Below, piece by piece: positions 3,422 through 29,731 of a stretch of 34,437 bases of DNA; position 1 is the stretch's first letter, and each line of letters opens with the position of its first letter. The notes under the pieces are model-generated. The model did not search any database. It saw nothing but the letters and a program-made list of their open reading frames with translations, and was not told the DNA's origin. Source of the DNA: a virus; IMG/VR virus record IMGVR_UViG_3300036851_000363, positions 1 through 34,437 of that record. The stretch is one strand, 5' to 3'. The translations under genes were made by a program, and so were the position numbers.

Positions 3422-3787
3422 TCAGACCATGTTGAGGTAAACGTCCGCCGTTGTGTCGCCGCTAAGCTTGGTTTTCGCCGCACGACCGGCCTTGTTGTGG
3501 GTTGACGCGGTTGTCGTGAGGCGATTGTTGCCGCTGTCGAAGTAGAGCACTGTGCCAGGATCGGCCGTATCCGTGCTCAGAGCCGCGTATCGCACAACGA
3601 CTCCACCAAGCAGGCATGAAACACCGTCCGCGCTGGATGCTGCATCCGCCGTCAGCAGCGCCACCGGCACCCCTGCCCCTGCGGTTAACGGAAACGAGAT
3701 CAGATCCCCGCTCAGCTTGGCCGAGGCAATGTTCTTCGTTGTCCCGTAAACCGGTGCTCCGAATTCCCGAACTACGTTCTTGGCCAT
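3422..3787 (-). CDS. Capsid decoration-like protein, DUF2190 family (copy 2)
   Basis: 121 aa. Opening MAKNVVREFGAPVYGTT, then SGDLISFPLTAG, VALLTADAA, GGVVVRYAALSTDTADPGTVLYFD and ending DTTADVYLNMV. This is the pattern of DUF2190 proteins, small beta-barrel head decoration or fibre-base proteins encoded beside capsid genes. It is a close paralogue of the gene just upstream and shares about three quarters of its residues by eye. A strong AAAGGAGCT ribosome binding site precedes the ATG. Confidence 0.85.
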   Translation of the reverse strand: MAKNVVREFGAPVYGTTKNIASAKLSGDLISFPLTAGAGVPVALLTADAASSADGVSCLLGGVVVRYAALSTDTADPGTVLYFDSGNNRLTTTASTHNKAGRAAKTKLSGDTTADVYLNMV

Positions 3788-3801: not shown

Positions 3802-4173
3802 TTATGGCATGTTGAGATAAACGTCGGCGGTCGTATCGCCGTTGAGTTTTGTCTTCGCCGCTCGCCCAGCCTTGTTGTGGGTGGATGTCCCGCTGTCCGT
3901 CGTCAGGCGGTTGTTCGTGACATCGAAGAAAAGAATTGTCCCAGGATCCGCCGTGTCCGTAGATAGCGCGGCGTACCTAACCACTACACCGCCCAGAATA
4001 CACTCAACATTGTCTTCGCTGGACGCGGCATCGGCCGTAAGCAGCGCCACAGGAACATTGAACCCAGCAGTGAGCGGGAAGGAGATCAGGTCTCCGCTCA
4101 ACTTCGCGGAGGCAATGTTCTTCGTCGTACCGTAGGCGGGCGCACCCGCCTCTCTGACTACATTTTTTGCCAT
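3802..4173 (-). CDS. Capsid decoration-like protein, DUF2190 family (copy 1)
   Basis: 123 aa. Same architecture as the adjacent downstream copy. It shares MAKNVVRE, TKNIASAKLSGDLISFPLTAG, LGGVVVRYAALSTDTADPGT and the AKTKL.GDTTADVYLNM ending. Differences cluster in surface-type loops (FNV versus AGV, SEDNVECI versus SADGVSCL, and a three-residue insertion before STHNKAG). It is preceded by AAAGGAGCT and by two hairpins that separate it from the capsid gene. Likely trimers on the capsid surface, inferred from the family. Confidence 0.85.
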   Translation of the reverse strand: MAKNVVREAGAPAYGTTKNIASAKLSGDLISFPLTAGFNVPVALLTADAASSEDNVECILGGVVVRYAALSTDTADPGTILFFDVTNNRLTTDSGTSTHNKAGRAAKTKLNGDTTADVYLNMP

Positions 4174-12008: not shown

Positions 12009-12332
12009 TCATGCCAATGATTGATGAACCTCTCGATCTACTATCAAACTCTTATGTAACACCCCACCTGTGGTTACGAACATCTGTAGGTAACCTGTAC
12101 CGGCAATGTCGAAGTCCGTACCTACACACTGATACGTGAACTTACCTGGGTTAGTAATTTGGTCTGGGTCCTGAGCCGCAGATAGGCTCTTCACTATGCC
12201 AGGTATCCCAGCTATGGCATCTATCCTTAGCTTGAGAGATAGCGTTGCACCTGTGAGGGCAAGTGGTACGCCGTTGTCCTTGACCACGCCAGTGATCAAG
12301 TGGTGTGAGCCTACACGGAAGGGTTCACTCAT
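12009..12332 (-). CDS. Small beta-sandwich virion-type protein
   Basis: 107 aa. An alternating beta pattern (HHLITGVVKDNGVPLALTGATLSLKLR ... GKFTYQCVGTDFDIAGTGYLQMFVTTGG) resembles Ig-like or BppU N-terminal-like baseplate/fibre domains. Overlaps the preceding gene by 8 nt. It probably belongs to the tail-fibre group, but the family call is tentative. Confidence 0.65.
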   Translation of the reverse strand: MSEPFRVGSHHLITGVVKDNGVPLALTGATLSLKLRIDAIAGIPGIVKSLSAAQDPDQITNPGKFTYQCVGTDFDIAGTGYLQMFVTTGGVLHKSLIVDREVHQSLA

Positions 12333-12795
12333 CGGGAAGCCTCAAGACGTGGCCGGGTTTCGGAGCGCGCGCGACGATGGTCGGAGGAAACGGGGTCGCG
12401 ATGACCCGTTGCCGCCCGTCCGGGAGCGGCTCGTACTTGATCGTGCCAGCGGGGTATCCCTGATCCTGGGGGAGCGTGCCGACCGCAGGGGCCATCCCGT
12501 TTCGCTTCAGGGCCTTCGCGTAGATGACCTTCGAGAAGAGCCACGCGAGGGAGAGCATGAGGAGCCGGTTACACGTCGGGCAGCGCGCCACGTACTCCTG
12601 GTTATTCGTGATTTTCATGACGCCAATCTTCCGGAGGTCGTGCCCGCACTTCCCGGCCTCGCGGGTCCCGAGCTTGTCCGGACCGGGGCCGCCTTCGCAA
12701 CCCCAATATCCTTTCTCACCCCCGGGAACGAGGGTGAGGAGATCCCCGAGGGTTTGGATCTCCTCGGGGTTCCTCGCGATGGACGGAGCCTTCAT
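12325..12795 (-). CDS. Cys-rich protein of unknown function
   Basis: 156 aa. Cysteines at 33, 50, 72 and 75 (WGC, GKCGHD, ARCPTCN) could form one zinc site. A hydrophobic stretch follows (LLMLSLAWLFSKVIYAKAL, about 78-97). The C-terminal half is Pro-rich. ATGA overlap with the preceding gene. No family was recognised; the location is between tail-decoration genes and the packaging genes. Confidence 0.7.
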   Translation of the reverse strand: MKAPSIARNPEEIQTLGDLLTLVPGGEKGYWGCEGGPGPDKLGTREAGKCGHDLRKIGVMKITNNQEYVARCPTCNRLLMLSLAWLFSKVIYAKALKRNGMAPAVGTLPQDQGYPAGTIKYEPLPDGRQRVIATPFPPTIVARAPKPGHVLRLPDE

Positions 12796-13768: not shown

Positions 13769-16700
13769 TCAGTTCTCGAAGTCCAACGACACGTTTCGTG
13801 CGAGTGCGGGGTCGAGGGCGACCTTCCGCGTTAACTCCGGGTTTTCTGTAATCGTCCGAGCGAGGAAAGGGCTGAAGGCTACGGTGCGGCCAAGTTCGAT
13901 GTTCTGGATGATCGTTCGCGCGAGGTCGAAGTCGATGATCACGAGCTCGCGGAGGAGACCGCTCGGGATCGTTGTCGGGTCGAGCCCCACAGCGACCACG
14001 ATGGCGACCGAGCTAATCGCGTAGATCCGGACGAGCGGATCATTCGCATCGCTCGTCGCGATCCCGGGAGAGGGGAAGACCTGGAGGAGGGAACTCGGTT
14101 CCGGTGCCGTGGCCTGGGCGCTCGCCGCGATCGGGAGAACGACGATCCTGCCGGTGACCGAGGGCACGCTCGCCGCAGCATTCGCCGACCCGGGCGCTCC
14201 GGAGACTCGCGCCGTGGGCACCGGGGAGATGGCGCTTGCCGCGGCCGCTTGGGGCATTGCCGTCTCGGTCGCGGTCGTCGTCACGTCGTTTGCGATGGCC
14301 GATGCCGAGGCGGCGCTCGGGCTCGCGACTATGCGCGCGGTCGGGTCCCCAGCGGTGCCAGCGGCGACCGCCGGAGCCACCAGGGCGACGATCCTGGCCG
14401 CGACGTCGTTCGCGGTGGCGAGGGCCTCGGCCGGCGTTGGGTTCGCCCTGATCCGGACCGTTGGGTCTGGGACGGTGAATAGGGCCGGGGCGGCTCCGGG
14501 GAGCGCTCGGGCGGAGGCCGTGGGGTCTGTGGAGGAGGCGGCTGCCGAGGCCCCGGTGGGCGCCGTTTGGATCTTGGGGGCGGGGTCGGGGGCCGTTCCG
14601 GTTCCAGAGGCCGGGGAGACTGGCGCGAGAACCTTCGCCGCGGGTTCTGGGGCCGTCGCCGAGCTCGTGGCAGGCACTGGCGTGGCGACGATCGCCGCGG
14701 AGGGGTCGGGAACTATCGCGCTTCCGATGCCGGCCGCCGGGGAGACCGTCGAGGCCGTGAGCGTGCTCACGTCCGGCGCCACCGCGGAGACGGAGCCCGG
14801 CGCGGGCGTCGCGACGATCTTCGAGGAGGGATCCGGCGCCGTCCCCGCAGCGGAGGCCGGGGATGGAGTTTCGGCCACCCGCGCGACCGGATCCGTGGAT
14901 GTGCCGACGCCTGCACCTGTGGCCGGGCTCGCGATGGTCCTCCCGGCTGGGTCCGGAGAGGTGGCCGAGCCCGAGGCCGGAGCCGACGAGGCGGCGACCC
15001 GCGCGGAGGGATCCGGGGCAACCGCGCTCGCTGGGGCGGCATCCGGGGAAACATTGCTCGTGCCAGAGGCCGGGAATGAAGAGGACTCCGCGAGACCACG
15101 AGACCAGAACTTCCTCGTCCCCGTGTCGTTCCCAGCTTTCTTCGCCCCCCTGAAGGCGAGACCCTTAAACCAGAATTGCTGCGTTCCTTGTGCCGGGGAG
15201 GTTCCATCGGTCGCGAATGGATCCGGGGCGGTTGCGACGGCAGAGGCGGGGCTCGGGAGCGCTCGCGCCTGGACGGATGGGTCGGGCGAGCTCGCGAGCG
15301 CCTCCGCGGCCGCCGGCGTTACGGTCTCGATCGCGACGGGGTCCGGAGCCGTGCCTGCGGCGGAAGCGGGGGGCGGGAAGGCAATCACGCGTGCGGATGG
15401 ATCTTGGGCCGTGGCAGCCGCGCTGCCGGCGATCGGGGTGGCGATCACGCGCCCCGTCGGGCCCGGCGCGGTGCCCATGGCGGCCGCCGGGTCCGGGAGC
15501 GCCAGGACCTTCGCCGTAGGCTCCGAAGCGGCTGCGGTAGCTGGAGCGGCCGCCGGCAGGGCCGTCTCCGTTGCCGCGACGACCGGATCGAGGGCCGTCC
15601 CAAGGGCGATCCCGGGGAAGGGGCTGGCAACGACCTGGCCGGTGGAGTCGGGGGCCGTGGCAAGCCCCGTGGCCGCAGCCGTGGGGGCTTGCACACGCAC
15701 CGTTGGATCTGGGGAGGTTGCCGGCGCGGAGGCCGGAGCCGGGGTCGCCTGGGCCTTCGCGGTGGGGTCCGGCGCCGTTGCGCTCGAGGGCGCCGCGGCC
15801 GGCGTGGCGGTCTGACGGACGCTGGTCGTCGGATCAGGCGCGATCGCCGCGGCTGCCCCCGCGGCCGGGGTGGCGATCACCCTGGCAAACGGCTCCGGTG
15901 CCACGGCGCTCGAGGCGGCGGCGGCGATCGCGGCGCGGACGGCAGCGACCGGGTCGGCTCCCGCGGCCGTTGCGGCAGCCGCGGCGGAGATCGCCTGCAC
16001 GCGGACGAGCGGGCTTGGGGCCGTGGCGAGAGCCGTTGCGAGAGGATCCACCGCGCGGACCCGGGCTAACGGATCGGGCGCCGTCGCTGTTGCCGGGGCA
16101 GCGGCTGGGGTCGCCGTCTCCCCGGCCGCCGCCGAGCCGAACGCGAAGTAGAGTATCTCTCTCGACGTACCGTCTACGGTCGTGTTATTGATCGTGAACC
16201 CGTCCGAATCCATCGAGACGAAGTCGGCCGCCGCATCTACGGTCGGGGTACCCTCCGTCATGAGCTTCAGGCATTTCGTCCTATCGAGATCCGCATCGGC
16301 AGAGGTGAAATTCTGAGCGTCTAGGTCCCCAGACCATATCGATGCTCTCTGTGTGGAACTAACTGCCGCCCCGATGGTCAACCGCGAAAAGGATCGGGAT
16401 ATTGTGGACGATGCAAGGTTGGTGCTCTTAAATAGAACCAGCTTTGGCGTAAATCCTACGCCTGTAATCGCTTGGTTGCCTGTGGCCGTGGCCTGGTTAA
16501 AGGCGCCAACGTCGAACTGCCCGCCCTTAATAGCAATGTACCCCACGAGAACTGCAGTCGTACCTACCACGGACCAGTTAAGCGTGAACCCATTCGCATC
16601 AAACGAGACGAAGTCCGCCACGCGAGGTATTGTACCGGTTCCGCTAAGGTTGTTGAAAGCCGAATCTGTTGTCTGGTACGAATATGTATCTGATGTTCCC

Positions 16701-17314
16701 TGAGCATCTTCGCGAAAGAGAGTGCTGCTATTTCTCTTCGTCGTGCTCTTTATGAAGTGTAGGCCAAAAGGCGAGTTCGTCGCGTTGCCAACCGTTGTAG
16801 GGAACGCGGTCGAGACGCAATCGAACAGAATCAGCCCGTCGGGTTGAAAGCCAGGGTCCGTTACTGCAGAGTTGCCAGTTACTGTTGGTGTCGAGAACTC
16901 TCCGACCTTGGCATTTGTGATATCGCTACCGCCGAGCGCGATGTAGTTGACTATGCGGGCCGTGGCGTCAACGGTCGTCCAGTTGACCGTAAAGCCCCCA
17001 GAATCCATGGACACGAAGTCAGCCTCTGCCGCAAGTACGGGCGTCCCAGCCGTGAGGAAGCTAATGCACTTCGTGTTCTCGTAACGGCGATCGCAGAGTG
17101 AAGTCCCTGCGTTGTCAGTCGAGTACACTGCAACACTGCCACGCTGCGTTGAAGAGCTCGCGGCTCCGAAGGACTTCGATGCATTGACCTGGTTACCATC
17201 TGCAGTGAGGTAGTTACCAAAGAAGATCACGAGCTTCGGCTGAAAACCAACGCCAGTTATCGCCTGGTTTCCCGTGCTTCCTGGTTGAGCGAAACTACCT
17301 ATGAAGGCATCCAA
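13769..17314 (-). CDS. Giant repeat-containing tail/fibre-type protein
   Basis: 1181 aa in four parts. (1) Residues 1-395: three tandem ~130-aa domains with GVGFxPKLVxF, DFVSMDSxGFTxNxTTVD and a closing beta strand. (2) About 400-1120: some 33 copies of a 20-residue Ala/Pro-rich repeat, consensus ATPAPASAxATAPDPTARVI. They are interrupted near residue 730 by a ~45-aa insert containing two GTxxFWxxGLA motifs. (3) A short hydrophobic link. (4) The last ~55 residues: a 10-residue repeat (DLARTIIQNI, ELGRTVAFSP, FLARTITENP, ELTRKVALDP, ALARNVSLDF). Probably an extended virion fibre with three N-terminal heads. No enzyme motif was seen. Placed with the beta-helix proteins. Confidence 0.85.
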   Translation of the reverse strand: MDAFIGSFAQPGSTGNQAITGVGFQPKLVIFFGNYLTADGNQVNASKSFGAASSSTQRGSVAVYSTDNAGTSLCDRRYENTKCISFLTAGTPVLAAEADFVSMDSGGFTVNWTTVDATARIVNYIALGGSDITNAKVGEFSTPTVTGNSAVTDPGFQPDGLILFDCVSTAFPTTVGNATNSPFGLHFIKSTTKRNSSTLFREDAQGTSDTYSYQTTDSAFNNLSGTGTIPRVADFVSFDANGFTLNWSVVGTTAVLVGYIAIKGGQFDVGAFNQATATGNQAITGVGFTPKLVLFKSTNLASSTISRSFSRLTIGAAVSSTQRASIWSGDLDAQNFTSADADLDRTKCLKLMTEGTPTVDAAADFVSMDSDGFTINNTTVDGTSREILYFAFGSAAAGETATPAAAPATATAPDPLARVRAVDPLATALATAPSPLVRVQAISAAAAATAAGADPVAAVRAAIAAAASSAVAPEPFARVIATPAAGAAAAIAPDPTTSVRQTATPAAAPSSATAPDPTAKAQATPAPASAPATSPDPTVRVQAPTAAATGLATAPDSTGQVVASPFPGIALGTALDPVVAATETALPAAAPATAAASEPTAKVLALPDPAAAMGTAPGPTGRVIATPIAGSAAATAQDPSARVIAFPPPASAAGTAPDPVAIETVTPAAAEALASSPDPSVQARALPSPASAVATAPDPFATDGTSPAQGTQQFWFKGLAFRGAKKAGNDTGTRKFWSRGLAESSSFPASGTSNVSPDAAPASAVAPDPSARVAASSAPASGSATSPDPAGRTIASPATGAGVGTSTDPVARVAETPSPASAAGTAPDPSSKIVATPAPGSVSAVAPDVSTLTASTVSPAAGIGSAIVPDPSAAIVATPVPATSSATAPEPAAKVLAPVSPASGTGTAPDPAPKIQTAPTGASAAASSTDPTASARALPGAAPALFTVPDPTVRIRANPTPAEALATANDVAARIVALVAPAVAAGTAGDPTARIVASPSAASASAIANDVTTTATETAMPQAAAASAISPVPTARVSGAPGSANAAASVPSVTGRIVVLPIAASAQATAPEPSSLLQVFPSPGIATSDANDPLVRIYAISSVAIVVAVGLDPTTIPSGLLRELVIIDFDLARTIIQNIELGRTVAFSPFLARTITENPELTRKVALDPALARNVSLDFEN
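13950..16115 (-). repeat. Coding tandem repeat, 60-bp unit, about 33 copies
   Basis: Degenerate 60-bp (20-codon) repeats within the giant fibre gene. The conserved core is AxAPDPTARVx-A-P. Copies differ enough that the array is old or under diversification, and they are very GC-rich. The repeats also create a long open frame on the opposite strand (14109-15815), which is an artefact. Confidence 0.9.
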
Positions 17315-22951: not shown

Positions 22952-23128
22952 CTACCCCGCCGGCTCCACGCTCTTGAACCTTTTCCCGCACTTCGGGCAG
23001 ACGTGCCGCCGCTGCCGCTTCCGCGTGCTCACGGTAAGGGACGGCGTCCCGCAACGCGGGCAAGGGGGCTTGTCGCGGGGCGGGGGCTTCCAGATGACGG
23101 GGAAGTCTTCGTCGGGAGTGCTCTTCAC
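22952..23128 (-). CDS. Small zinc-ribbon protein
   Basis: 58 aa from a GTG at 23128 overlapping the previous stop (GTGA). Two CxxC pairs, C23/C26 (PPCPRCG) and C44/C47 (HVCPKCGKRF), separated by a basic stretch (STRKRQRRH), form a classic zinc ribbon that could bind nucleic acid. Stop is TAG. It is the last gene before the terminator. Confidence 0.8.
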   Translation of the reverse strand: MKSTPDEDFPVIWKPPPRDKPPCPRCGTPSLTVSTRKRQRRHVCPKCGKRFKSVEPAG

Positions 23129-23298
23129 TTCACCTCTCGAGGAGTCACAAGCTCCATGGCCAGCGGCATGAGCATGCAGAGCCCGATACGGATCATGAAG
23201 AGACCGATACAGTCCCAGAACGGAAGCTCGAGGTAGACGCTCGGGAGAAAGGAGAGGAAGCCGATGAGCCAGCCCATGATGGGGATGGCGTAGATCAT
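23125..23298 (-). CDS. Small membrane protein, holin-like in size
   Basis: 57 aa with ATGA overlap to the lyase gene. Residues 1-20 (MIYAIPIMGWLIGFLSFLPS) and about 28-50 (FWDCIGLFMIRIGLCMLMPLAMEL) are two hydrophobic segments separated by a short polar turn, with a charged tail (TPREVK). Two membrane passes in about 60 residues fit a pinholin or small holin, but no sequence signature confirms it. Confidence 0.7.
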   Translation of the reverse strand: MIYAIPIMGWLIGFLSFLPSVYLELPFWDCIGLFMIRIGLCMLMPLAMELVTPREVK

Positions 23299-24275
23299 GG
23301 CCCCATGTCCGCGATCCGCGCCGTCTCGCCGCCGATCTTCAAGTGGGAGAAGTGGATCTCCGTGCTGTTGCCGTTAGGGACCGACACGTTCCCGCTCGAG
23401 TCCGGCCTCGCGCCAGGGCGGTAGCAGCCGAAGCTCGGCTTGATCTGGTCCGTTCCGCCGTAGCAGTTGGGGAAGGGATCGGCGTGCGCCATCGATTGCT
23501 GCGTGCCGTTCACCCACCAACGAAGACTCCCTTGGCCGCCTTTCGAGACAGGTCGATTGTCAAAGAGGGACCTCATCACGAGCTGGTACCACTTTCCCTT
23601 CTCGATCGGCATGACCCAGATGTCCTCGCGAGTCTCGCCGGGGTTGTCCGTGACTGGGGCTTCGCTCCAGAGTCGAACGAGCTTCAGATTACCGCCACGG
23701 AGTTCGAGGGAGAGAGGTGGATTCATCTTGAGGGTCTGATACCACTGGAAAAGGACGGACTTCGCATCGGCCAAGACGTGCGTTTCTGGGATGCGGATCC
23801 CGAATCCCCACCACATCACCTTGCGGGTCGGGTAGCGCATCGCGGTCTTCGAGCTGGGGTCGGTACCCCAGATCGAAATCTCGCTCCGGTAGCACTCAGG
23901 CGTCCCGGCCACGAACACCACCTTGAGGATGCCGTCCGCGACCGTGAAGCTCTTCGCGTCGTCGGGCGATTCCAAGATGTAGCGGCCGAACTTCTCCTCG
24001 GGTCTCGTCAGGAAAGGGTCGCTCCAGATGAGGTTTTCTGGCGCAGGCGGCGGTGGCACTGGCACCGGCGTCACCCCGCCCTCGAGCACTCGGATCCTCT
24101 CCTCGAGAATCCGGATCTGGGCCTCGAGCCTGGCTTTCTCTTCGCCGGCTGCTCTGACGAGCTCAGCAACACGCTGCGCGAGGAGTTGCTCGAGCGTCGC
24201 CAGCTCCTCGGCGAGGAGGACGGCGGACTTGGGGCGCGCCGCGATGGCGGCGAGTTGTTCTTCGATGGTGGGCAT
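23295..24275 (-). CDS. Coiled-coil protein with polysaccharide lyase-like domain
   Basis: 326 aa with AAAGGAAG before the ATG. Residues about 3-65 form a long coiled coil (likely trimer stem), then a Pro-rich linker (TPVPVPPPPAPE). Residues about 82-326 are a jelly-roll domain of the heparin lyase I/glucuronan lyase-like type (polysaccharide lyase, Pfam PF14099): VLFQWYQTLKMNPPLSLELRGGNLKLV, GKWYQLVMRSLFDNR, GSLRWWVNGTQQ, KPSFGCYRPG, EIHFSHLKIGGE. It probably digests capsule or exopolysaccharide as a virion depolymerase. The substrate is unknown. It sits apart from the other spikes, beyond the terminator. Confidence 0.8.
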   Translation of the reverse strand: MPTIEEQLAAIAARPKSAVLLAEELATLEQLLAQRVAELVRAAGEEKARLEAQIRILEERIRVLEGGVTPVPVPPPPAPENLIWSDPFLTRPEEKFGRYILESPDDAKSFTVADGILKVVFVAGTPECYRSEISIWGTDPSSKTAMRYPTRKVMWWGFGIRIPETHVLADAKSVLFQWYQTLKMNPPLSLELRGGNLKLVRLWSEAPVTDNPGETREDIWVMPIEKGKWYQLVMRSLFDNRPVSKGGQGSLRWWVNGTQQSMAHADPFPNCYGGTDQIKPSFGCYRPGARPDSSGNVSVPNGNSTEIHFSHLKIGGETARIADMGP

Positions 24276-24292: not shown

Positions 24293-24601
24293 TTAAATGA
24301 ACTCTGCTTCCGGTCTCTCCGGTGCACTCTTCAGCAGCTCGCGGCCAAGCTGCACCCATTCCGTCCACTGCTCCTTGCCTTGGGTCAGGGGTATCTTGTC
24401 AGCGACCCGTGCCAGCACTTCGAACTCGTCCATCTCGACGGAATTCATGTCCTCGTCTAAGTACCTCAAGAAATAAAACAGGATTCCAGGCAACTTGGAC
24501 AACGAGTACGTTTTGGGTCCAACATGCCTCACCAACTCGTACAGCGTCCTTTGCCCGTCGCCTCCTTGGTCTTCGTATGTGAAGCGCACGAACGCCGCCA
24601 T
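24293..24601 (-). CDS. Protein of unknown function
   Basis: 102 aa. The ATG overlaps the previous stop by one base (TGATG). Mixed alpha/beta (AFVRFTYEDQGGDGQRTLYELVRHVGPKTYSL, then helices LPGILFYFLRYLDEDMNSVEMDEFEVLARVAD and WTEWVQLGRELLKSAP). No domain was recognised. It is co-transcribed with the lipoprotein and metacaspase genes. Confidence 0.7.
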   Translation of the reverse strand: MAAFVRFTYEDQGGDGQRTLYELVRHVGPKTYSLSKLPGILFYFLRYLDEDMNSVEMDEFEVLARVADKIPLTQGKEQWTEWVQLGRELLKSAPERPEAEFI

Positions 24602-24948
24602 CACGCTGGCCCCCCTAAACTCGGCAACCCCAGCGCGCCCTTCAAGACCACGAACAGCCCCCGCGCTAACCCCGCGATCAAGGCGTCGAAGAACTTCCCC
24701 GTAGCTGTCTGAGACTTCAAAGCGTACCTCTTGCCCAGCGACTTCCCCGCCTCCTTGAGCCACTCGAGATCCTCCGCCGCGTTCGGGTCGCCCGCGAGCT
24801 GCCGCTCCGTGAAGAAGCTGTAATCCACAGCCATGGCCTCGAGCTTCCGCCGCACGTCCGGGATGTCCTGGAGATGCGGAAGGAAGGAAGCGTTCAGCGC
24901 CTCGAGAAACGCGGATCTCGCCATCTCCTTCACGTCAACGGGCGGCAT
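24601..24948 (-). CDS. Helical protein of unknown function
   Basis: 115 aa; overlaps the lipoprotein gene by 14 nt. All-helical with a C-terminal hydrophobic stretch (KFFDALIAGLARGLFVVLKGALGLPSLGG) that could associate with the membrane. The middle (DIPDVRRKLEAMAVDYSFFTERQLAGDPNAAEDLEWLKEAGKSL) is a helical bundle. It could be part of a lysis or envelope group with its neighbours; function is not known. Confidence 0.7.
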   Translation of the reverse strand: MPPVDVKEMARSAFLEALNASFLPHLQDIPDVRRKLEAMAVDYSFFTERQLAGDPNAAEDLEWLKEAGKSLGKRYALKSQTATGKFFDALIAGLARGLFVVLKGALGLPSLGGPA

Positions 24949-25162
24949 GGTCTTTCACCTCCATCAAGAGCGCTTCGAACTCGTCGATGCTTGCGAGACG
25001 GTTCGCCTTCGAACGCTCATCGAGCCGCGGGTCGTCAGTGATCCCCTTTCGTGCCACGGGCCCAATCAGCCGCCAATGGGATTGGAGTTGCTCCGCGGCG
25101 CCTTGCGGCACGGAGCAGCACCCGGAGACCATCAGCACCGCCGCGAGAATCAGTTTACGCAT
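24935..25162 (-). CDS. Small lipoprotein (spanin-like size and layout)
   Basis: 75 aa from ATG 25160-25162. Signal peptide MRKLILAAVLMVSGCC with lipobox V-S-G-C puts a lipid-anchored Cys at residue 15. The mature ~60 residues are helical and charged (QLQSHWRLIGPVARKGITDDPRLDERSKANRLASIDEFEALLMEV). Phage lipoproteins of this size can be outer spanin subunits, but those are usually Pro-rich, so the call is open. Directly follows the metacaspase with about 32 bp between. Confidence 0.75.
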   Translation of the reverse strand: MRKLILAAVLMVSGCCSVPQGAAEQLQSHWRLIGPVARKGITDDPRLDERSKANRLASIDEFEALLMEVKDHAAR

Positions 25163-25194: not shown

Positions 25195-26004
25195 TTAGCG
25201 TCCTTCCTCGAGAATCCCGTGCTTCGCCATGTAGCGTGGTCCGTAAATTGCCGGAGTTTGGGGGTAAGAGGCGCTTGGGAGCTTGGTCCGAATCTTCCGC
25301 ATCCAATCCTGGTAGTTGCCAGGCGTGTGGAGTTCGGCGAGCGAATCTAGAGCGGCGCGCGTGAAGGCTCCATTCGCTCTGTCTCCGAACCAGGCATCGT
25401 AGGCAAACTCGAGGTCGCCGCAGCCAGCGAGGAGGAGCGAGGCCGTCCGCCCTGGCGGTTGCGCCGCTCGCCGCGTGCTGCCCGAAATCCCGCGCACGTC
25501 CATGATCTCGCTCTCAGGGAGAAACGCGGCGGGCGGGAGGAAGCGCACCTTGGCAGCGTTCGCGGGTGGAGAAAGCTCGCGCGAGAATCGGGAGACTGTC
25601 CCGCTGTGGCAGCTATCGGACAGCATCACTACCCTCGCGCCGCGCTCACGCTCCGCGAAGATTTTCGCGAGGTCGTCATCGGTGATGTAGTTCCCTTCTT
25701 CTATGTCCCATGGAATGAGCACCTCATCGCGGCCGTCTGGCTCGTCGCCGCTCTCGTCGGGGACCCATGAGCCGTGGGAGGAAATCGAGAAGACGGCGAG
25801 ATCCCCGTACCTGAGACTCTCCACCAGTACCGTGAGATGCTTCAGGATAGCGCTCTTCGTGGCGTCCCGCTCGAGGAGCTTCGTCACTGCGAAGCCGCGT
25901 TGCGTCAGGGCGTCCTCGATGTCGTTTGCATCATTCAGGCACCCAGCTAACGCGCTTTGGGTCCCTGCGTAGTTCAGGCCCACGCATAATCCAAACTTGC
26001 TCAT
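25195..26004 (-). CDS. Metacaspase / caspase-like cysteine protease (peptidase C14)
   Basis: 269 aa from ATG 26004, chosen for its GGAAGGG site and because the fold begins there. It is a complete p20-type caspase fold. Residues 3-38 give the first strand and helix (FGLCVGLNYAG...LAGCLNDANDIEDALTQRGF). FSISSHGS carries catalytic His77. DEVLIPWD (93-100) is the usual metacaspase loop. VVMLSDSCHSG carries catalytic Cys132 with the S1-pocket Asp130. LLLAGCGDLEFAYD and GAFTRAAL complete the core. Metacaspases of this type usually cut after Arg/Lys. There is no signal peptide or recruitment domain, so it is a cytoplasmic, minimal enzyme. It starts 10 bp after the patatin gene and must share its transcript. 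Confidence 0.95.
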   Translation of the reverse strand: MSKFGLCVGLNYAGTQSALAGCLNDANDIEDALTQRGFAVTKLLERDATKSAILKHLTVLVESLRYGDLAVFSISSHGSWVPDESGDEPDGRDEVLIPWDIEEGNYITDDDLAKIFAERERGARVVMLSDSCHSGTVSRFSRELSPPANAAKVRFLPPAAFLPESEIMDVRGISGSTRRAAQPPGRTASLLLAGCGDLEFAYDAWFGDRANGAFTRAALDSLAELHTPGNYQDWMRKIRTKLPSASYPQTPAIYGPRYMAKHGILEEGR

Positions 26005-26014
26005 ACCCTTCCTT

Positions 26015-27082
26015 TCATTGCTCGAAAACCCTTGTCGCATCCGCCACGCCTGGAGGCCGATCCTCCCACCTACCTTCCGACACGAATCGTCTGCCGGCCT
26101 CGAATACCCGCCGCATCTCGACAGGAACAAACTCCTGCGCTCCGAAGTCAAGCGGCACGTAGTCAGGTATTCTTGCAAGCCTCCATTCCACACCCAGATC
26201 CTTCGCCGTCGCGTAACTTTGCCAGAGCGTTCCAACGGCACTCGCGTTCGCCAGCACCTCGACGCTCCTAAGCGCTATGGCGAGAAGGTTCGGCTGGACG
26301 CAGTCCTCACCTACCGAGATTTGGCCGTTTAGAATCACGCTTACCATGATAGGACGCGATGATTTGGAATGCGGCGACCTGAGACCCAGAAAAACATCAC
26401 GGAGTAAAAGCTGCTCCCTCACTCCACCGTCGCAATGGTGAACCCCGCCGATGTAGACCGCAGGATGCAATCCCGGCACGGAGGACGACGCCAGCAACAC
26501 GGCGCGGTAGGTTTCGTAATCCTTCGCCTTCGCAAGCGCCACCATGTCCCACGCTCGCATCCGTCCAGCGTCCAGCGAGACGGTTCCAACGAACAGCGCG
26601 CGGCCACCGCTCTCCGCCGCGACTCTGTCGATGAGCGCGTCCGGCACCTCCCGCGCGATGAGTTCGCGAAGCGGCTCCAAGGTGGTGAGGCTGTCTGAGA
26701 ACGGAACAGCGAGGATGGAGCGCGTGCGGAAGATGTCCGAGTTCGTCACGGTGATATACGTCTTGGCGAGAACCGCGTCGTCTTCAGGCTGGCCCAAGAA
26801 TGCATGGCTTGCGAGTAGCGCGCCAGTAGAGACACCCGTCACCACGCCATAGCGGGGCCTCTTCCCGGAGTCACGTAGCCCCGTGAGGATGCCGGCAGTG
26901 AAAGCCCCACGGCTCCCGCCGCCAGAGATGACCAATACATCCACGCTTGCCGCGTTCTCGAGCCGTGCCAGCGCTGCGCGCACTGTGGAGGCTTCGCCCC
27001 GTGCGGCGGCCTTCGGCGGCGGGCACTCGCGTTGAGCGCAGCCGAGAAACGGCAGCCAGGCGCAGAGCCAGGCGAGCTTCAT
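26015..27082 (-). CDS. Lipoprotein patatin-like phospholipase
   Basis: 355 aa from ATG 27082 (ATGA overlap with the gene before). The N-terminus MKLAWLCAWLPFLGC is a lipoprotein signal, with Cys15 as the likely lipidation site, followed by a linker. The patatin fold follows: oxyanion hole SGGGSRG (residues 53-59), nucleophile elbow GVSTG with Ser85, and the DGG of the catalytic Asp at 218-220. Patatins are Ser-Asp lipid acyl hydrolases. VVTGVSTGALLASHAFLG is typical of bacterial patatin-family lipoproteins. It would sit on an envelope membrane and attack phospholipid. Immediately precedes the metacaspase gene. Confidence 0.94.
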   Translation of the reverse strand: MKLAWLCAWLPFLGCAQRECPPPKAAARGEASTVRAALARLENAASVDVLVISGGGSRGAFTAGILTGLRDSGKRPRYGVVTGVSTGALLASHAFLGQPEDDAVLAKTYITVTNSDIFRTRSILAVPFSDSLTTLEPLRELIAREVPDALIDRVAAESGGRALFVGTVSLDAGRMRAWDMVALAKAKDYETYRAVLLASSSVPGLHPAVYIGGVHHCDGGVREQLLLRDVFLGLRSPHSKSSRPIMVSVILNGQISVGEDCVQPNLLAIALRSVEVLANASAVGTLWQSYATAKDLGVEWRLARIPDYVPLDFGAQEFVPVEMRRVFEAGRRFVSEGRWEDRPPGVADATRVFEQ

Positions 27083-27264
27083 GCGCCCTCTTCCCTCTTG
27101 TCCATCCGCATCGTGTTCCCTGTCTCCAGGTTTTCCCACTCAAGGTGGCTGCGCTTTTGAGTCTCTGGATTCAAGACGAACTCAACCATTTCCAGCCGGT
27201 CAAAATGGAACACCTCTCCGGTGTCGAGGTCCCGGACTATGTGGAGCTTGGGGAGGTCGGTCAT
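27079..27264 (-). CDS. Small protein of unknown function
   Basis: 61 aa from an ATG overlapping the previous stop (ATGA). Beta-rich (KLHIVRDLDTGEVFHFDRLEMVEFVLNPETQKRSHLEWENLETGNTMRM). No domain was recognised. It is the gene directly before the patatin and coupled to it, so it may be made together with it. Confidence 0.7.
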   Translation of the reverse strand: MTDLPKLHIVRDLDTGEVFHFDRLEMVEFVLNPETQKRSHLEWENLETGNTMRMDKREEGA

Positions 27265-27521
27265 GGGCTCTCCAATAAACGGCGACGGCCAGGCCGGGAG
27301 AGTGTTCGCGCCAATGGCCTTTGGCAGGTGCCGCCGCCATTTCGTGCTAACTTCCTCAGCCGCGGGTTTGACCGCGGGCTCAGTGCTTTCGCGCACGCGT
27401 TCAGAACCGCGATATTCCACTTGTCCATGCGCTTCTTGATCTCACCGAGCGTGATGAGCGTATCGAGCCACCGCGCCACCTGCGCCATGGTCTCGGCCTG
27501 CTTCGCTTCGAGGGGGGTCAT
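27261..27521 (-). CDS. Small protein of unknown function (MTPLEA start)
   Basis: 86 aa from an ATGA-overlap start. Residues 3-47 are helical (LEAKQAETMAQVARWLDTLITLGEIKKRMDKWNIAVLNACAKAL). The last 35 residues are Arg/Pro/Gly-rich and unlike a folded domain, so the true gene may be shorter or the end altered. Similar opening to three other small genes in this part. Confidence 0.6.
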   Translation of the reverse strand: MTPLEAKQAETMAQVARWLDTLITLGEIKKRMDKWNIAVLNACAKALSPRSNPRLRKLARNGGGTCQRPLARTLSRPGRRRLLESP

Positions 27522-28592: not shown

Positions 28593-29731
28593 CCCTCCCC
28601 CTCCGGCAGGCACTCGCGGAGCTGCTTTTCGATGTCATCGAGCGAGTAATGGTCGATGATGTTGAAAGGCGAGTTGCCTTCCTCGTCCCGATACTCGCGG
28701 ACAGCCACGATCATTCCCTTCGCCAACCGGATCGCGGCCTGCGCGGCGGCGAGCTTGGTGCGTGTAACGTTCAGGTGCTGCTCGAAGAAGTCGCGCTCGC
28801 TGATAGCCGCAGCGTGCGCCGCCCGCGCCTCGTCGCGCTCGCGGCGGAGGGTGTCGTGCGACTTAAGCGTGTCCTCGGCGAGCGAGGGGGAAGAAAGCGG
28901 CGGCTGGCCAGAACCGACACTGGCTGTGAGCTGACCCTGGCTTAACTTCGGCAGCTTCATCGCTTCTACGCCGCCGTCGGCTCCACTCCACTGCTCGAGA
29001 GGTTCCCCGCGTTTCGGGGCGTCAGGGTGCGGGTCCTTCCCCGCCGCAGCCGCCGCATCATTCAACTCGCGGCCCCCGCCTCCGGGGGACGCCCCGGCAG
29101 GCTCGGGCTTACCTCCCGAGCCAGTTCGTATGGCGGAGGCCGCTTCATTTTTATCTTTGGAGCCCGGGGCCGGACTCGAACCGGCGTCTCCAGCTTTGCA
29201 GGCTGGCCCCTCGCCACTCGGGCACCCGGGCGGGGTTGGGAGAAGGTAAACAGGTGCAGGTTGCATCCTTGCCAGCTCGATATTCCGAGCGAACAATTCC
29301 GCCGCACGGTCCCGCATGACCATGGCAATGAACGCCCACTTGTGCGCGGGCTCAAGCCCGTGATGGTCGGCCACGAGAATCGCGGCGCGCAGCATGGCGT
29401 CGTCTCGATTGGCGAGGGCATAGAGCCGTTCCTCGATGGCCTTGAGCGTCCCTGGATCAAAGGGCGGGGTGGCGTGAGCTACCTCGTGCGGCGTGACGCG
29501 CCCGCAGAGCGTGCAATGCCAGCCGTCCGAGAACGGATGCACCGTGTCCTTCCCGCAGTAGCCGCAGCGCGGCTCGGCCTTCGATGGGGCGGGGGTGGCG
29601 GCTTTCTTCCGCGCGTCTAACTCCTTCACGCAGTCATCGAGGAGCCCGAAGGCACCTCTCGCGTTGTCCTGGGTCAGCGCGAAGTGCGCGAGCCGGATGA
29701 TTTGCTCGGCGTCCATCTCAACCTTGCTCAC
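28589..29731 (-). CDS. Long ORF with N-terminal zinc ribbon, spanning the tRNA-Cys gene
   Basis: 380 codons from a GTG overlapping the previous stop (GTGA). Residues 1-50 are helical. C56/C59 and C73/C76 (CGYC, CTLC) form a zinc ribbon, and a helical part follows to about residue 155. Residues about 167-192 are only the translation of a tRNA. A low-complexity stretch follows. Residues from an internal ATG at 28960 form a coiled coil (DTLKSHDTLRRERDEARAAHAAAISERDFFEQHLNVTRTKLAAAQAAIRL) plus a folded end (FNIIDHYSLDDIEKQLRECLPEGEG). The frame may therefore be two genes joined by chance across the tRNA. Confidence 0.6.
   Translation of the reverse strand: MSKVEMDAEQIIRLAHFALTQDNARGAFGLLDDCVKELDARKKAATPAPSKAEPRCGYCGKDTVHPFSDGWHCTLCGRVTPHEVAHATPPFDPGTLKAIEERLYALANRDDAMLRAAILVADHHGLEPAHKWAFIAMVMRDRAAELFARNIELARMQPAPVYLLPTPPGCPSGEGPACKAGDAGSSPAPGSKDKNEAASAIRTGSGGKPEPAGASPGGGGRELNDAAAAAGKDPHPDAPKRGEPLEQWSGADGGVEAMKLPKLSQGQLTASVGSGQPPLSSPSLAEDTLKSHDTLRRERDEARAAHAAAISERDFFEQHLNVTRTKLAAAQAAIRLAKGMIVAVREYRDEEGNSPFNIIDHYSLDDIEKQLRECLPEGEG
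29158..29231 (-). tRNA. tRNA-Cys (anticodon GCA), CCA encoded
   Basis: Full cloverleaf can be drawn on the minus strand: acceptor GCCCGGG/CCCGGGC (7 bp), D arm CCC/GGG, anticodon stem CCAGC/GCTGG with loop CTGCAAA (anticodon GCA), variable AGAC, T stem GCCGG/CCGGC with loop TTCGAGT, discriminator T and CCA. Total 74 nt, no mismatches in the stems. It is a functional-looking phage-borne tRNA lying inside an open reading frame on the same strand. Confidence 0.96.

Follow-up and report, generated by a model that had tools for sequence, protein, structure and literature searches.

A patatin-like phospholipase gene and a metacaspase gene form a conserved phage module with a possible role in lysis

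The patatin-like phospholipase gene and the metacaspase gene that lie side by side on the virus record IMGVR_UViG_3300036851_000363 are supported as a real conserved phage module: their pairing is more than chance, because the two genes also adjoin each other in G003, a phage whose terminase is unrelated, and stand one gene apart in a sister phage (G001). From its anatomy, we tentatively read the pair as a late, envelope-directed lysis module, with a probability of roughly 40%. The IMG/VR record, classed as linear, was analysed over its whole length of 34,437 bases; this stretch is hereafter called the window (G000 when compared with related contigs).

The window comes from a phage, since it is an IMG/VR virus record encoding a lambda-type TerL, a TerS, a portal and a fused head protease/major capsid protein. 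Almost all its convincing genes are carried by the minus strand. In the order of transcription, small genes without assigned function (34.4 to 27.1 kb) precede the patatin and the metacaspase; then come a small lipoprotein, a 115-aa protein, a polysaccharide-lyase-like protein, large tail-fibre-like proteins, the terminase and the head genes. As genes extend past the contig ends and no tape-measure gene was recognised in the contig, part of the genome is probably missing. The features surrounding the pair are collected in Table 1.

Table 1. Features of the window at and around the patatin-metacaspase pair
Feature	Position	Strand	Evidence or remark
ORF upstream of the patatin, without family match	27079..27420	-	stop overlaps the patatin ATG
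Patatin-like phospholipase (PF01734), 355 aa, probable lipoprotein	26015..27082	-	Pfam and motif alignment
Patatin-metacaspase intergenic gap, 10 nt	26005..26014	-	sequence
Metacaspase (PF00656, C14), 269 aa	25195..26004	-	Pfam, alignment, AlphaFold model, Foldseek
Small lipoprotein, 75 aa, lipobox VSGC, downstream of the metacaspase	24935..25162	-	kept in G001 and G002
115-aa protein, hydrophobic C-terminus, without family match	24601..24948	-	kept in G001 and G002
Polysaccharide-lyase-like protein (PF14099)	23295..24275	-	Pfam; homologues in G001 and G002
57-aa protein, two hydrophobic segments, holin-like by anatomy only	23125..23298	-	no PHROG match

Some features of this genome deserve mention on their own. 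The G001 homologue of the polysaccharide-lyase-like protein is only ~30% identical, against ~95% for genes nearby; relatives of this protein and of the 115-aa protein were searched in annotated phages and none was found. A 1181-aa protein (13769-17314), made mostly of Ala/Pro/Thr/Ser-rich repeats, has a repeat-rich relative in G003, and the stretch around it is GC-rich (75% at 14-16 kb). Two adjacent and near-identical small genes (3422-3787 and 3802-4173) share as best match one single stretch of G001, and a tRNA-Cys (GCA) is predicted at 29158-29231, overlapping a 436-aa ORF.

The patatin ORF (27082-26015, minus strand) begins MKLAWLCAWLPFLGC, and its ATG overlaps the TGA of the preceding ORF in an ATGA at 27082-27079, which suggests translational coupling. 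Only 10 nt separate the patatin stop from the metacaspase start, within the Shine-Dalgarno-like stretch AAGGAAGG, a gap that leaves a terminator no space. The initial annotation had placed the end of the patatin 10 bp before the metacaspase start, both genes being on the minus strand in a chain of coupled genes: the coordinates (27082-26015 and 26004-25195) agree, and the start/stop overlap is the upstream junction of this chain. It had also reported that the catalytic residues are kept, Ser85 and Asp218 in the lipase, His77 and Cys132 in the protease; the alignments show their conservation in the phage copies.

The first protein of the pair is, judged from its sequence, a member of the patatin-like phospholipase family with intact catalytic motifs and a predicted activity. 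It matches PF01734 in Pfam (E=9.4e-22, 78.6 bits for a cut-off of 27.7); the oxyanion GGG54-56, the nucleophile motif GV-S85-TG and the D218-GG are conserved in 3/3 phage patatins (window, G001 and G003), and no PHROGs model was matched. A structure model built from these three sequences was poor (pLDDT 52) and was left unused. The N-terminus carries a putative lipobox, FLG-C15 in the window, FVG-C in G001 and FMG-C in G003, with an atypical Phe at -3; its Cys is invariant in these copies and shared by two bacterial relatives, and the protein is probably a lipoprotein. The gene is under purifying selection (dN/dS versus G001 of 0.15-0.21 overall, and 0.11 outside the patch described hereafter). 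At 26333-26419 (codons about 222-250) a short stretch is sharply divergent from G001, the rest of the gene being closely similar, which suggests a replaced patch.

With this patatin, tblastn against the phage collection gave one weak match only, in an unannotated 636-kb phage. The two bacterial relatives, on plasmids of Sphingomonas sp. NIC1 and Mesorhizobium sp. B1-1-8, are 36-39% identical over most of the protein and share the lipobox Cys, but they lie beside efflux/TolC/RND genes, with no metacaspase annotated within 4 kb. Because both are lipoprotein-type and stand beside efflux operons, the phage patatin looks like a captured envelope enzyme.

The second protein is a C14 metacaspase, as indicated by its alignment and its modelled caspase fold with a His-Cys dyad; its protease activity is predicted. 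It matches PF00656 in Pfam (E=2e-22, 80.5 bits for a cut-off of 21.4), the PHROGs matches being sub-threshold only. The catalytic His77 and Cys132 are found in 36/36 viral sequences of the tree alignment; among the bacterial sequences of the same alignment Cys132 is kept in 80/80 and His77 in 78/80. The acidic signature of metacaspases (D83, D87-E88, D90, D93-E94), which is linked to Arg/Lys specificity, is invariant in 38 sequences. The AlphaFold model (pLDDT 88.6) found its best Foldseek matches among solved structures in Arabidopsis metacaspases (metacaspase 9) and Geobacter GSU0716. Compared by structure with predicted viral proteins, its significant named matches are in viruses of eukaryotes, mostly giant viruses, and not in phages. 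Bacterial C14 metacaspases or orthocaspases (e.g. GSU0716, PDB 3bij) have the same fold and catalytic dyad, and the nearest are up to ~50% identical to the phage copies; the four copies of this phage group (G000-G003) nevertheless form a clade of their own (support 0.88). The metacaspase is under purifying selection as well (dN/dS 0.07-0.45 across comparisons, with dS saturated), and no signal peptide was seen in the window protein.

The initial annotation had advised searching phage genome collections for linked patatin and C14 genes. This linkage is found: in 3/3 IMG/VR records with this patatin (window, G001 and G003, of which the window and G001 are not independent) a metacaspase adjoins the patatin or is one gene off. 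Scans of the viral collection that used the single patatin, the three phage copies, or these together with bacterial relatives found only G001 and G003; the profile search replaced a motif scan for patatins that was too narrow, two known bacterial relatives having escaped it. G001 is a sister phage, with ~95% identity to the window in many structural proteins; its patatin, 92-93% identical to that of the window, is followed by a DNA methyltransferase and then by a metacaspase only 47% identical. This methyltransferase (L002 8971-9633, TDPPYG motif) has a 4-bp overlap with each neighbour, patatin and metacaspase, and a search of bacterial genomes with it gave nothing useful. G003 is a phage with a different TerL, in which patatin (51%) and metacaspase (49%) are adjacent; besides the pair, it has in common with the window only three late genes and a repeat-rich tail protein. 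The genome position of the pair also differs: in G003 it lies between a homologue of the window gene 12325-12795 and the terminase genes. In G002 the metacaspase, 59% identical to that of the window, is at the contig edge, and any patatin beside it would lie beyond the contig.

The linkage is one-way: the patatin is accompanied by a metacaspase, but the metacaspase is nearly always without patatin. Viral contigs encoding related metacaspases number at least 46 and differ in size; G001 and G003 apart, none of them (44 records) shows a patatin, and pairing as a rule for phage metacaspases was rejected. The bacterial side gives no pair either: up to 10 kb on each side of the 80 nearest bacterial metacaspase loci no patatin of this type was seen (as a control, the profile finds the bacterial relatives), and genomes scanned with the alignment of the three phage patatins yielded no match. 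On these two results a bacterial origin as a ready-made pair was rejected. Two further records found through TerL (14 kb and 48.7 kb) show neither gene, so that some members of the phage group may lack the module.

The two genes have differing histories. In the metacaspase tree the window is sister to G002, and G001 to G003 (65% identity between the latter two); this conflicts with the patatins, those of the window and G001 being 93% identical. In the two sister phages the same patatin is therefore accompanied by different metacaspase alleles, and their DNA ceases to be similar at the patatin 3' end. Something retains a metacaspase beside the patatin, though no particular one. Different alleles beside so similar a patatin also argue against a tightly co-adapted protease-substrate pair.

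How such a pair could act at lysis may be sketched as follows. The two genes would form a small module expressed with the late genes, whose products would attack the host envelope at the end of infection. The patatin, exported and anchored as a lipoprotein, would hydrolyse phospholipids and so weaken the outer membrane, as proposed for the patatin of phage WO. The metacaspase, made in the cytoplasm, would cut proteins of the host or of the phage as the cell is shut down and lysed; once a holin-type permeabilisation had occurred, proteins of the periplasm or envelope could come within its reach too. Holin-like and spanin-like parts would be supplied by the small membrane proteins and the small lipoprotein encoded beside the pair.

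The neighbourhood is consistent with this sketch to some extent. A small lipoprotein follows the metacaspase in the window, G001 and G002 (by anatomy only, that of the window is outer-spanin-like), and small membrane proteins follow it in G001 and G003: in G001, both a 75-aa TM protein and the small lipoprotein come after it; in G003, the order is patatin, metacaspase, a protein with N-terminal hydrophobic segments and a charged C-terminus, a TerS-like ORF and TerL. Lambda, too, has its lysis genes immediately upstream of those for the terminase. In the window, the nearest small protein with two TM segments is 1.9 kb downstream of the pair. Besides, in two unrelated phages a metacaspase stands directly before an endolysin (L010, phrog_1224, 3.6e-79; L035, phrog_1493, 4.9e-18), and in L069 an M15-motif endolysin candidate is two genes beyond it; around the other phage metacaspases, recognised lysis genes are a minority of the neighbours. 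No endolysin or holin family appeared among the best 25 families listed per scan in the four related contigs, which are incomplete and in which a strongly diverged endolysin would escape; an ordinary endolysin may lie in their missing sequence. To our knowledge, no lysis pathway includes a metacaspase.

Other readings of the pair have to be weighed. It could be an accessory ("moron") pair acting against competing phages or altering the host, which kills or excludes on superinfection like bacterial defence patatin and caspase effectors. The enzyme superfamilies are indeed the same (PADLOC defence-effector models are matched at this level, phospholipase effector with E 3e-14 and caspase with E 1e-5), the position of the module varies among the phage genomes, with a methyltransferase within it in G001, and a metacaspase allele that differs between sister phages is what one expects of arms-race genes. 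We nevertheless hold this reading unlikely: the curated CBASS lipase model gives 36 bits, far under its cut-off of 200, no nucleotidyltransferase (CD-NTase) or other sensor gene was matched beside the pair, no integrase is among the families listed for the window, and the phage patatin has a predicted lipoprotein anchor, whereas CBASS CapV patatins are cytoplasmic. With no sensor gene seen and such scores, CBASS or another defence system as such was rejected. Host takeover or counter-defence, with a metacaspase destroying host proteins (e.g. those of defence) and a patatin remodelling membrane lipids with no direct role in lysis, strikes us as rather improbable too. It would suit a metacaspase that has no signal peptide, that diverges fast between phages and whose many viral relatives, besides being mostly without patatin, are usually away from recognised lysis genes; it leaves unexplained why a predicted lipoprotein lipase is always beside the metacaspase in the patatin-bearing records, and why the pair of G003 lies upstream of the terminase with small membrane proteins.

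That the two genes share only a history, as functionally unrelated late genes adjacent by chance in a donor and then moved together, is quite unlikely in our opinion. The many viral metacaspases without patatin, the methyltransferase that splits the two genes in G001 and the discordant gene histories would all agree with it; but the swap has left beyond the patatin a metacaspase belonging to the same clade, and the two genes stay together in another phage background, at another genome position. Even less probable is a lipase activated by the protease, a two-step device recalling gasdermins and proposed in the initial annotation, in which the metacaspase would cleave the patatin, for example in the Arg/Lys-containing linker after the lipid anchor, and activate or free it. 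Metacaspases cut after Arg/Lys, the two genes are adjacent and Arg18 of this linker is common to the three phage patatins. However, the two bacterial relatives lack Arg18, and a longer cleavage motif is not apparent; the compartments are predicted to differ before lysis, the patatin having an export/lipoprotein-type signal and the metacaspase none; and the sister phages have metacaspases ~47% identical beside nearly unchanged patatins. We would be surprised to find here a caspase-family protease that processes or releases a membrane-anchored phospholipase, as a viral counterpart of the caspase-gasdermin pair, and so triggers lysis. Among the roles listed in the initial annotation, the lysis cassette is the best supported, by the anatomy of the neighbours and by the phage WO precedent, and the cascade from protease to lipase is unsupported.

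This precedent is a putative patatin-based lytic cassette of phage WO of Wolbachia, described in the cited passages with a holin-like protein and without the canonical endolysin-holin-spanin system (PMC9203015, PMC3173496). What the window may have in common with it is a patatin encoded near late structural genes, a candidate holin-like small protein in the neighbourhood and no canonical endolysin recognised in the incomplete contig; as these passages present it, the WO cassette differs by an ankyrin-repeat protein and has no metacaspase (PMC9203015, PMC3173496), and no ankyrin family was found among the window neighbours of the pair. LysB-type enzymes offer another comparison: these lipolytic phage enzymes break an outer envelope layer at lysis, and the patatin would work alike, but LysB, in the passages cited, is a different enzyme whose target is the mycolic-acid layer of mycobacteria (PMC6116114). 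In the open-access literature (subscription papers and preprints being outside the search) we found no description of phage metacaspases or of a phage patatin-metacaspase pair. The claim that no phage module of this kind had been described therefore holds for the pairing within that literature; it has to be narrowed, as a patatin-based putative lytic cassette is published for WO and related metacaspases are common in phage contigs without patatin. Phage patatins as possible lysis enzymes were already proposed; it is their pairing with a metacaspase that is without found precedent.

It is chiefly from cellular death and defence that caspase-family proteases and patatins are known. A pair of them conserved in different phages would add an alternative route of lysis or envelope attack to the canonical one with holin, endolysin and spanin, and the numerous phage contigs with a metacaspase point to an unstudied class of phage proteases.
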